64,000 nt of DNA from the NCBI GenBank assembly GCA_913778905.1, contig CAJYYA010000016.1:62001-126000 (forward strand). The letters are read 5' to 3'. Positions 2,512 through 60,643 of this stretch are shown here, piece after piece. The notes under the pieces were generated by a model. It was not told the DNA's origin. It ran no database searches and saw only the letters and a list, made by a program, of their open reading frames with translations. A program made the translations under genes and the position numbers. How positions within the stretch are numbered: position 1 is the stretch's first letter; the number at the start of each line of letters is the position of its first letter. This DNA comes from an uncultured Naasia sp. Lineage in GTDB: Bacteria > Actinomycetota > Actinomycetes > Actinomycetales > Microbacteriaceae.

Positions 2512-2530
2512 TCGTGTCGGGGCTGTCTCG

Positions 2531-2610
2531 CGCTCAGCAGGAACTCCTACCGCTCAGCAGGAGGGATCGGGCTGATTCCTCCTGCTGAGCCGTCGTCGCT
2601 CCTGCTGAGC
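2531..2610. repeat. GCAGGA phased dyad element, CTCAGCAGGA variant
   Basis: CGCTCAGCAGGA occurs at 2531-2542 and 2551-2562, exactly 20 bp apart. Its inverse (TCCTGCTGAGC) occurs at about 2580-2590 and 2600-2610, again exactly 20 bp apart. The element sits between two convergent genes (CsbD-like on +, metallopeptidase on -). A second copy of this variant is at 38814-38894, and the layout matches the AAATGCAGGA elements elsewhere in the window. Confidence 0.8.
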
Positions 2611-2637
2611 GCGAGCCGGAGGCCGGAGGCCGGACGG

Positions 2638-5560: not shown

Positions 5561-5707
5561 CGGCTCAACAAATGCAGGAGATCTGTGCGGAATGCAGGGG
5601 TCGGCGATCCGAATGCAGGAGGCGACGACCAACAGGCCCGGAATTCCGGGAGACACCGTTTCAGGCTCAGACGGGAATCCTGCATTCGTTGAGCCGCCTC
5701 CTGCATT
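5561..5707. repeat. GCAGGA phased dyad element, AAATGCAGGA variant (copy 1)
   Basis: The direct core AATGCAGG begins at 5571, 5591 and 5612 (spacings 20 and 21), and the inverse CCTGCATT begins at 5679 and 5700 (spacing 21). The outer arms CGGCTCAACAAATGCAGGA (5561-5579) and TCCTGCATTCGTTGAGCCG (5678-5696) are an inverted repeat with one mismatch. A perfect 14-bp palindrome, CCCGGAATTCCGGG, lies near the centre at 5637-5650. This fills most of the 394-bp gap between recQ and the Old Yellow Enzyme gene; apart from the hairpin at 5773-5817 nothing else is seen there. Confidence 0.85.
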
Positions 5708-5772
5708 TGTTATGGGTTGGCCGACCGACCGGATGATCAGGGGGGCGACGCCGGTGCGGGGGTGAACGACGA

Positions 5773-38781: not shown

Positions 38782-38813
38782 CTCCTCCGAGCGTAGGGGG
38801 GCGAACGCCCCTG

Positions 38814-38894
38814 CGCTCAGCAGGAACAACAACGCTTCAGCAGGACCAAATCGGCGATTAGCTTCTGCTGAGGCGTCGAAGTTACTGCTGGGCG
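38814..38894. repeat. GCAGGA phased dyad element, CTCAGCAGGA variant (second copy)
   Basis: The direct motif TCAGCAGGA occurs at 38817-38825 and 38837-38845 (20 bp apart). The inverse core CTGCTG begins at 38865 and 38885 (20 bp apart; TTCTGCTGAGGC and TTACTGCTGGGC). The architecture is the same as at 2531-2610. The direct copies abut the 5' end of the GNAT remnant. Confidence 0.7.
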
Positions 38895-39002
38895 CGAGGG
38901 GAGCGCGAGAGAAGTCCGGTCAGGGGTGGTCAGACGTTCAGCGGCGATTGCGGTGGCCCAGCCCGGTCCTCGCTCGCGCCCGACCCAAGGCCGGCATAGG
39001 CC

Positions 39003-47772: not shown

Positions 47773-47950
47773 CGTTCCCCCTGGTGAGAATTCGAGATGG
47801 GGCCCCCGCCCCACCGCACCTCCAGCGACCTGAGTCGGGAGGGCGGAACCAGGTTACGGAAACTCCACCCCCGCACCCACCCCCACTCCGGGTCGGATGA
47901 ACCTTTCTCACATCGGAATGCCGAGCACTCGGAACGACTTGACCCTCGGT

Positions 47951-48976
47951 ATGAAGGCGATCGCGTACTCCCACACCGGTGACTCATCCGTTCTCAACCC
48001 CGTCGAGCGCGAGCCGGGTGATCCCGGCGCCGGTGAGGTGCGGGTCCGCGTCGTCGTCTCGGGCGTCAACCCGACGGATTGGAAGGCACGGGAGTCGCGA
48101 CCGGGCGGGATGCCCTTCGACGAGATCGTGCCGAATCAGGACGGCGCAGGAGTCGTGGACGCGGTCGGCGAGGGCGTCTCGGACCTCGAGGTCGGCGACC
48201 GGGTGTGGGTGTTCCTCGCGGCGCACGAGCGGCCCACGGGAACGGCCCAGGAGTTCACCGTCCTCCCGGCCAGTCGGGTCGTGCGGCTGCCCGAGCGTGC
48301 CGGCTTCGACCTCGGAGCGAGCCTCGGGGTCCCCGCCATGACCGCCCACCGCGCCCTCACCGTGCACGAGCACGGCCCTTCGCGCCTGTCCCCCGGTGCA
48401 CTCGACGGCCGCGTCGTGCTCGTGCAGGGCGGAGTGGGAGCCGTCGGCCACGCGGCCATCCAGCTCGCCGTCTGGGCCGGCGCGACGGTCATCGCCACTG
48501 TCAGCAGCGACGCGAAGGCCGAACTCGCCCGCGTCGCCGGGGCGCACCACATCGTGCAGTACCCGGCCGACGACCTCGCTCGGCAGATCCTCGCCATCGC
48601 ACCGGACGGCGTCGACCACATCGTGGAAGTCGCGATCGCGACGAACGCCGCGCTCGATGTTGAGGTCGCGGCGAACCATGCGGCCGTCGGATACTTCGCC
48701 GACAACAACGGCGACGAGTTCACTGCGCCGATCCGGATGAGCTTCGCGAAGAACATCCGCTGGCAGGGCCTGCTCCTCTATACGGTCGGGGACGAGCCGA
48801 TGCAAACCGCGGCCGAGGACATCACGGCCGCGCTGACCGACGGCGTCCTCCCCGTCGGCGAGGAGGCGGGTCTCCCGCTCACCTGGTTCTCACTCGATGA
48901 GACCGCCGCCGCCCACGACGCCGTCGAATCCGGTGTCACGGGCAAGGTGCTCATCCGCGTCTCCGACGACGCCTGA
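47951..48976 (+). CDS. Quinone oxidoreductase-like zinc-independent MDR protein
   Basis: 341 residues from ATG 47951 (MKAIAYSHTGDSSVL); the upstream in-frame start at 47897 has no support. Medium-chain dehydrogenase/reductase fold: N-terminal GroES-like part with VVSGVNPTDWKAR, VPNQDGAGVVDAVGEGV and GDRVW, then the Rossmann motif VLVQGGVGAVGHAAIQLAVWAG. The catalytic-zinc ligands and structural Cys cluster of alcohol dehydrogenases are missing, so NADPH:quinone reductase or related enoyl reduction is likely. It ends 15 bp before a GCAGGA repeat element. Confidence 0.85.
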   Translation: MKAIAYSHTGDSSVLNPVEREPGDPGAGEVRVRVVVSGVNPTDWKARESRPGGMPFDEIVPNQDGAGVVDAVGEGVSDLEVGDRVWVFLAAHERPTGTAQEFTVLPASRVVRLPERAGFDLGASLGVPAMTAHRALTVHEHGPSRLSPGALDGRVVLVQGGVGAVGHAAIQLAVWAGATVIATVSSDAKAELARVAGAHHIVQYPADDLARQILAIAPDGVDHIVEVAIATNAALDVEVAANHAAVGYFADNNGDEFTAPIRMSFAKNIRWQGLLLYTVGDEPMQTAAEDITAALTDGVLPVGEEAGLPLTWFSLDETAAAHDAVESGVTGKVLIRVSDDA

Positions 48977-48990
48977 CCCCGCCCTGCTCA

Positions 48991-49130
48991 ACAAATGCAG
49001 GAGTCGAGAAAACAAATGCAGGAAGTGCGGATTTTCGACTGAACGCGTGTCGCGGAAACACGGGCTACTTCTCTACGGAGTCCTGCATTCGGACAACCGG
49101 ATCCTGCATTCGTCACACACTTCCTGCATT
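48991..49130. repeat. GCAGGA phased dyad element, AAATGCAGGA variant (copy 2)
   Basis: The direct core AATGCAGG begins at 48994 and 49015 (21 bp). The inverse CCTGCATT begins at 49082, 49103 and 49123 (21 and 20 bp). It starts 15 bp after the stop of the oxidoreductase gene. With the next copy it fills the 463-bp convergent gap before the helicase gene; no gene is seen there. Confidence 0.85.
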
Positions 49131-49204
49131 CGGTCAGCGAACACGGGTGCCGCAACACCTTCAGGAGACGGATCCTCGGACGGCCGCCCACCCCGAGCAG
49201 CTGA

Positions 49205-49344
49205 ACAAATGCAGGAGCGGGGAGAACAAGTGCAGGAGTCGACGGATGACGGGTCGCCGCCACCCCTGCTATCTCGGGCCTCGCGCGCGTGGACTCCTGC
49301 ATTCAGATAGCCGGATCCTGCATTCGACAGCAGACTCCTGCATT
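49205..49344. repeat. GCAGGA phased dyad element, AAATGCAGGA variant (copy 3)
   Basis: Direct copies begin at 49208 (AATGCAGG) and 49229 (AGTGCAGG, one change), 21 bp apart. Inverse CCTGCATT begins at 49296, 49317 and 49337 (21 and 20 bp). The last copy reads TCCTGCATTTGCTCAGCAG, where the two motif variants meet. The spacing pattern is identical to copy 2. Confidence 0.85.
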
Positions 49345-49439
49345 TGCTCAGCAGCAGAGCCGCAGGGGCGGGCAAGAACGGCGAGAGGCCGGGTCCACGG
49401 TGTGGGCCCGGCCTCTCGCCGTCACTATTCAGGTGAGGA

Positions 49440-60330: not shown

Positions 60331-60350
60331 CCGCAGCGGCCGGGCGCCTG

Positions 60351-60491
60351 CGCAAATGCAGGAGGCGGAAAAACAAATGCAGGAGACGGCGAGACCGGCG
60401 CCGACAGCAGCCCCGGAATGTCGGGCTCGTCCGACCGCGACTCCTGCATTTCGGACGTCGACTCCTGCATTTCGTAGCCGGTTCCTGCATT
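60351..60491. repeat. GCAGGA phased dyad element, AAATGCAGGA variant (copy 4)
   Basis: The direct core AATGCAGG begins at 60355 and 60376 (21 bp). The inverse CCTGCATT begins at 60443, 60464 and 60484 (21 and 20 bp). CCCGGAATGTCGGG at 60412-60425 is an imperfect version of the central palindrome of copy 1. It starts 20 bp after the APC permease gene. The rest of the 313-bp gap to 60643 holds nothing recognised. Confidence 0.85.
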
Positions 60492-60643
60492 TGTTCCGAA
60501 CAGAGCTAGTGGACTCGGTCCATGTGCCTCGCCGACTCCGCCTGGCGGCGCCCCCGCGCGGGAGCTTGGAATCCACCCCCGAATCACCGATGCCTGAATG
60601 GATACGGGGTGTTCGCTGAGCCGGCACGCCTACCGTCGGGGGC

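Follow-up and report, generated by a model that had tools for sequence, protein, structure and literature searches.

REPINs, which PMC8049555 in the part drawn on here names as the one case known in prokaryotes of an intragenomic sequence population that is stably maintained, are the closest described counterparts of the repeats reported below. As set out in the sections of PMC3116915 and PMC8049555 used here, a REPIN has a pair of conserved ends, inverted relative to each other and a set distance apart (71 bp in the GI doublets of P. fluorescens SBW25), around a variable spacer, lies in extragenic DNA in tens of copies, and is served by an enzyme whose gene has repeats in its flanks. REP repeats tagged with GTAG or CGTC are found preferentially downstream of genes, where the gap is convergent or co-directional (PMC3733652, whose cited part makes no mention of Actinobacteria). 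On the protein side, AbiEi, the antitoxin of the type IV toxin-antitoxin system AbiE, and Rv2827c bind pairs or tandem sets of 23-bp inverted repeats, four of them in the case of Rv2827c, and AbiEi autorepression runs through inverted repeats (portion of PMC7319586 cited here). The DUF559 domain is often found in Vsr-like PD-(D/E)XK endonucleases (PMC12907096, in the excerpt considered). The elements studied here share with REPINs the inverted ends at a fixed distance (63–66 bp), the variable spacer, the extragenic position, the tens of copies and the enzyme gene flanked by repeats. They differ in their tandem 20–21-bp units, in the linked DUF559 nuclease and in the absence of a GTAG or CGTC tag, judged by eye, from the consensus of both families described below. 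RAYT genes, which encode a Y1 tyrosine transposase (PF01797), were found in none of nine genomes of the genus (one of them 68% complete), against five of 14 control genomes, so the elements are not REPINs.

The window spans 64 kb, which is the whole stretch of 64,000 nucleotides. The pattern WRTGCAGGA matches 20 times in it, against 0.77 matches expected from shuffled sequences, and 19 of the 20 lie inside four phased elements. These are the copies reported in the initial annotation, and all of them lie at the positions given there (Table 1). Their arm steps are 20 or 21 bp, and the innermost facing motifs are 66 bp apart. Copy 2 lies 10 bp past the stop codon of a dehydrogenase gene (47897–48976), copy 4 lies 17 bp past that of a permease gene, and copy 3 is 88 bp off the 3′ end of a convergent DEAD-box helicase gene. 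Of the four copies, described earlier as lying for the most part directly behind stop codons, two do so within 20 bp. Ordinary hairpins adjoin the window copies at about 2480–2510 and 49378–49422. The latter, a strong hairpin 3′ of the helicase gene, gave spurious sub-threshold Rfam matches, which were discarded as chance hits of miRNA models on an ordinary terminator hairpin; no Rfam family reached its gathering score in the 64-kb window.

Table 1. Phased elements in the window (positions are those of the window; a semicolon separates the two facing sides)
Feature	Position	Strand	Layout	Motif positions and remarks
Element copy 1	5564..5714	+	>>>; <<	5571, 5591 (1 mismatch), 5612; 5678, 5699
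Element copy 2	48987..49137	-	>>; <<<	48994, 49015; 49081, 49102, 49122
Element copy 3	49201..49351	-	>>; <<<	49208, 49229 (1 mismatch); 49295, 49316, 49336
Element copy 4	60348..60498	-	>>; <<<	60355, 60376; 60442, 60463, 60483
Second-family (CAGCAGG) element	about 2527..2615			2535, 2555; 2581, 2601; steps 20/26/20
Second-family (CAGCAGG) element	about 38810..38898			G000:C16:100818 = window 38818; two motifs with one mismatch

Across the 3.2-Mb, 23-contig assembly, the 151-bp intergenic element was found in 30 copies, including the four of the window. It is built from AATGCAGGA motifs at 20/21-bp steps opposite inverted motifs and keeps to a constant plan: the tips CTGAACA...TGTTCAG are conserved, and one side usually bears three motifs and the other two. 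All 86 steps between adjacent same-strand motifs are 20 or 21 bp. The central step is 65–67 bp in 27 copies and 87 bp in three, each with an inner motif that has more than the one mismatch allowed; the step from first to last motif is 128 bp in 23 copies, 129 bp in four, 127 bp in two and 106 bp in one. The two arms are unequal in step, 20 against 21 bp, in 25 of the 30 copies. In an alignment of the 23 copies that could be set in one orientation (the other seven differ in steps or lengths), the columns of two motifs per end are 86–100% conserved and those of the tips 69–100%. The fifth motif is on the left in 14 copies and on the right in nine, one copy having it in both places and one in neither (three-mismatch cut). 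The spacers of the 14 left-type copies average 44% identity, against 28% in shuffles. The earlier statement that the phasing is kept while the sequence between motifs varies was thus borne out by the genome-wide scan, in which the spacing proved conserved in the other copies. That the design belongs to no named family agrees with Rfam and with the open-licence literature, in which no published description of the element was found.

A second family in this genome is built on CAGCAGG, with steps of 20/26/20 bp, 29 aligned copies and a consensus that is a near-perfect palindrome. Exact matches to it occur in five of nine members of the genus; among 398 genomes of the bacterial family, only one other had a match, and a single one. 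A ATGCAGGA pair with the same spacing was found in five of the 398. Concerning the main family, matches to its facing core, TGCAGGA-N55..63-TCCTGCA, were present in 67 of 219 genomes of the bacterial family, 13 of which have at least nine copies, whereas the reversed control reached at most three per genome; many single matches resemble chance or coding DNA. The 27 cores taken from six genomes of other genera are 69–71 bp long, mostly with the sequence AAATGCAGGAGATT...AATCTCCTGCATTT and with tips that are specific to the genus. Their centres are mostly unrelated, with a mean identity of 40% in G149, yet 63% in G060. In the congener G002 the core has CTGACC tips, and the outer repeats are absent in the six copies seen. 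Also in G002, CTGACCGAATCAAGGAGATTT motifs adjoin AATGCAGGAG elements with CTGACC tips (L283, L273, L267), perhaps a sister family. A further family, that of GGATCAGG, has steps of 19 bp and extra inner motifs (L301, L293, L297, L298 and L303 of G007; L406 of G001), and in G007 also a step of 66 or a total of 85.

The elements are a class and not one family, several relatives having related or differently worded phased dyads with a period of 19–21 bp. The class was surveyed by scanning for 7-mers repeated at one step and also inverted nearby. The sample of this genome gave counts at 20 and 21 bp only. Samples of 11 other genomes of the bacterial family gave 27 counts at 19–21 bp against 10 at the other 26 periods, figures that are not densities, as this genome's sample and several others were chosen for holding elements (those of G002, G003, G005, G001, G004 and G007 were evenly spaced). 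The 27 counts came from G004 and G007 (ten each), G323 (three), G083 (two), G001 and G248 (one each), and none from the samples of G002, G003, G005, G052 and G008. A mirror-image control gave one count at 19–21 bp in the samples of the bacterial family and one in GTDB DNA (603 kb); at these periods neither that GTDB DNA nor 405 kb of viral DNA gave a count in the real scan. A phage or plasmid origin was considered and rejected, since viral contigs contained nothing that matched a 22-base core pattern, and an element-bearing stretch compared with plasmids and one compared with phages likewise had no match. Exact matches to motif pairs in viral contigs and, among the matches listed, in GTDB are scattered over unrelated phyla and look like chance; the GTDB matches listed may lack this genome itself. 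A gyrase or BIME-type site was also dropped, the families having no common sequence.

Endonuclease genes lie between elements in several genomes. In this one, a DUF559 protein gene (L063, C17:10702–11577) stands between two AATGCAGGA elements. An AbiE toxin-antitoxin locus would have an AbiEii (DUF1814) toxin gene alongside; one neighbour of L063 is a dihydrodipicolinate synthase gene. A search with its protein returned a nuclease gene between two AAATGCAGGAG cores in another genus (L461, G129), one between CAGCAGG arrays (L263, G004), a broken one between two CAGCAGG elements on contig C8 of this genome (L346), and a homologue with an in-frame stop and one element, which overlaps its 3′ end (L462, G221). 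A model added a nuclease gene between two palindromes of about 55 bp and other sequence (L407, G323; by eye and scored) and a candidate between CGAGCGCGG arrays (L292, G007), with a weak score of 2.6e-4 and no Pfam match. PF04480 was above its cut-off in L063, L461, L263 and L407.

Most of the DNA searched for nuclease genes was chosen for holding elements, so the fair test of linkage is given by the evenly spaced samples. These contain three nuclease genes. When the left flank of each gene was compared with its right flank, the similarity placed all three within the top 1% of 1192 control genes, of which 9, 4 and 5 scored as high. Of three Tsukamurella homologues, one was above the flank-similarity background; the annotation of DUF559/AbiEi-type proteins in Tsukamurella records is antitoxin-like. 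Four ordinary control genes scored as high as most nuclease loci, and one of the four, L301, is an FAD enzyme gene between two elements of a phased family. From such scores, it is possible that genes merely sit in repeat-rich sites. Other genes found between close element pairs are Fapy-glycosylase-like (L048) and dehydrogenase-like (L464, by eye), and 20 further element stretches of six genomes held no DUF559 gene. The highest-scoring control of all, another of the four, was a DUF222 gene with an HNH-like tail, seen by eye, between GGTCGCTGAGCCGCCGCGCAGCGGC palindromic repeats of G002 (L286:7591–8904); we take it to be 13E12-like, and it may form a parallel nuclease-repeat pair.

The strongest point is that in one case the motif tracks the protein, two paralogues of one genome lying each within its own repeat family. 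The pieces of the broken L346 are 66% and 75% identical to the CAGCAGG-flanked L263 of G004, against 37% and 42% to the AATGCAGGA-flanked L063 of the same genome. L063 and L461, which share a motif, are 39% identical, little more than L461 and L263, with different motifs (37%).

The model of the G129 protein (L461), built from a four-sequence alignment, has a pLDDT of 85, and its top PDB matches are AbiEi (6y8q, E 6e-5) and the Vsr-like homing endonuclease I-Bth0305I (3r3p, E 6e-4). The predicted fold agrees with the 3r3p catalytic domain at a target TM of 0.80; the N-terminal match to 6y8q is modest (target TM 0.49, rmsd 6.2), and the AbiEi_4 scores, 21.8–23.7, are below the Pfam cut-off of 25. 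The proteins differ from I-Bth0305I in the predicted AbiEi-like part attached, in their many dispersed candidate sites and in that no intron or intein was seen. They differ from AbiEi antitoxins in having a C-terminal nuclease domain, and the elements differ from AbiEi operators in being spread genome-wide, mostly downstream of genes.

It seems reasonable to interpret the elements, with a probability of roughly 0.57, as REPIN-like non-coding repeats in which a cognate nuclease of AbiEi-type/DUF559 homing type recognises the phased motifs as its units. The endonuclease would combine an N-terminal AbiEi-type winged-helix part with a C-terminal DUF559 (Vsr/I-Bth0305I-like PD-(D/E)XK) domain. Each unit would be bound by one AbiEi-type domain, which would explain the 20–21-bp step; tandem units would line the proteins up along a single helical face, and the inverted arms would place two groups of nucleases opposite one another, with the variable centre between them. 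If an element or the DNA beside it were nicked or cut and then repaired or copied from another copy, elements would spread, be lost and become homogenised in intergenic DNA. Since motifs and spacing would suffice for this mechanism, centres and spacers would be left to drift. The data suggest an undescribed partnership between a predicted nuclease and a population of tiny repeats.

Which sites are occupied varies from one related species to another. The site 3′ of the helicase gene has a AATGCAGGA element in none of seven congeners; it has CAGCAGG arrays in G004, whereas this genome has the AATGCAGGA family there, and other repeats or palindromes in G003, G002 and G001, among them in G001 a palindromic array with CCTACGT motifs (L223:2700–3000). 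None of the CAGCAGG loci compared (nine of G003 and G005, three of G007, and eight loci or samples of G004) was seen to have the same neighbours as a CAGCAGG element of this genome. In genus g74, one element site of G149 was empty in four of four congeners, and there G149 has roughly 190–200 bp more than G248. At a second G149 site, G248 also has an element of this family, G201 and G081 share another palindrome, and G323 has nothing; the G248 element has near-identical ends, and its centre (19 of 45 positions identical) is no closer than unrelated centres. The palindrome of G201 and G081 at this AAATGCAGGAG site has the sequence GAGAGTACGYAC... (L476, about 1430–1500; L478, about 2170–2240). 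A site possibly shared between this genome and G323 (L049, L377) was set aside, because its two ABC-transporter ATPase genes, recognised by eye, need not be orthologues. Such old centres at young sites would be expected of a long-lived, slowly copying population, because its lineages would coalesce far back with the ends alone kept. As to conservation in related genomes, the core recurs, while individual sites mostly differ between species. The initial annotation had argued against simple inheritance of a mobile sequence, and this was not supported: the differing occupancy, together with copies that flank endonuclease genes, points to a mobile or copied repeat population.

Mobility of another kind, that of classical MITEs, would derive the elements, as non-autonomous forms, from an IS or transposon with a DDE transposase that binds the phased end sites, and the nuclease gene would be a passenger. 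Several phased sites in inverted ends are known for transposases of the IS21, Tn7 and Tn5053 types, which speaks for this explanation, as do the terminal inverted arms, the multi-copy intergenic occurrence and the variable presence. This genome also has a tniR-tniA-tniB-like locus, Tn5053-like, with resolvase, Mu-type transposase and AAA genes, at a contig edge (L068:225–3149, G000:C9). However, that locus is the only rve-type match in the draft genome, and its visible flanks (the left end is at the contig edge) are without motifs; IS21 or another rve transposase was set aside as an improbable mobiliser. In the DNA examined, only two matches to AATGCAGGAG are unpaired (L284, L384). No target duplication offset stands out in 29 of the 30 main elements or in the 29 CAGCAGG elements, and the centres are mostly unrelated between copies, those of G060 less so. 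With neither matching transposase ends nor a target duplication found, the elements differ from MITEs of these types, and we consider this origin unlikely.

Somewhat less probable still is that an AbiEi-DUF559 protein autoregulates at its flanking elements and that the dispersed copies serve in regulation, as targets or decoys, without being mobile. The autorepression of AbiEi through inverted repeats and the elements in the flanks of nuclease genes are in agreement with it. These elements are, however, on both sides of the gene and not upstream alone, and the dispersed copies are mostly placed after genes. According to script-made gene predictions, the 30 main elements occupy 14 convergent, 14 co-directional and two divergent gaps, and the 29 CAGCAGG elements 13 convergent, 13 co-directional, one divergent and two of undetermined type, a distribution like that of the tagged REP repeats.

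The frequent convergent settings, together with the 23 of 29 CAGCAGG elements that have a predicted stop codon no more than 26 bp away, would fit a host transcription-end element. It would act as a bidirectional terminator or roadblock where genes converge and would be maintained because selection acts on a host protein bound to it. The composition of the flanks is also consistent with it: for about 40–60 bp outside the main, CAGCAGG and other-genus elements, the inward-reading strand is C-rich and the outward one G-rich, and element-free gaps have little skew, although only five convergent gaps entered that comparison. The skew is nevertheless alike in convergent and co-directional settings, ordinary hairpins are already present beside the window copies, and the compared sites of other species are mostly without an element, which makes such a role improbable. 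The flanks were also considered as a split terminator hairpin and rejected, left and right flanks not being complementary within elements. Selection for pairing as an RNA or single-strand hairpin, which had been offered beside a protein-DNA array, is the least probable explanation and fits less well than the array: the facing arms can pair, notably in the palindromic CAGCAGG consensus, and CAGCAGG arm pairing is slightly higher within elements (383 of 638 cells) than between them (357±10; 52 of 5000 permutations as high, the weak signal lying near inner motifs and centre), but this excess is small, the unequal steps of most main copies mean that their arms cannot pair in register, the centres of the 27 other-genus cores are no more structured than shuffles (mean z −0.17), and Rfam gave no family in the window.

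Returning to the repeats as sites of a cognate nuclease, a broader proposal can be made tentatively, at slightly less than even odds: that in Microbacteriaceae-like actinobacteria homing-type nucleases of AbiEi-wHTH/DUF559 make-up have radiated and sustain a second, independent stable intragenomic sequence population besides REPINs. Each nuclease would have its own motif, read phased inverted site pairs, and copy or maintain tens of miniature intergenic elements, and new motif families would arise through divergence of the DNA-binding part. A parallel may exist in DUF222-HNH nucleases and the palindromic repeats that go with them. If this is true, a second type of population would be run by another class of enzyme, and such a way of life would have evolved repeatedly. 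DUF559/AbiEi-type proteins would gain a suggested function, and the origin of many unnamed intergenic palindromes of actinobacteria would become testable, since the clade of the nuclease would predict the motif and the motif would predict the nuclease.
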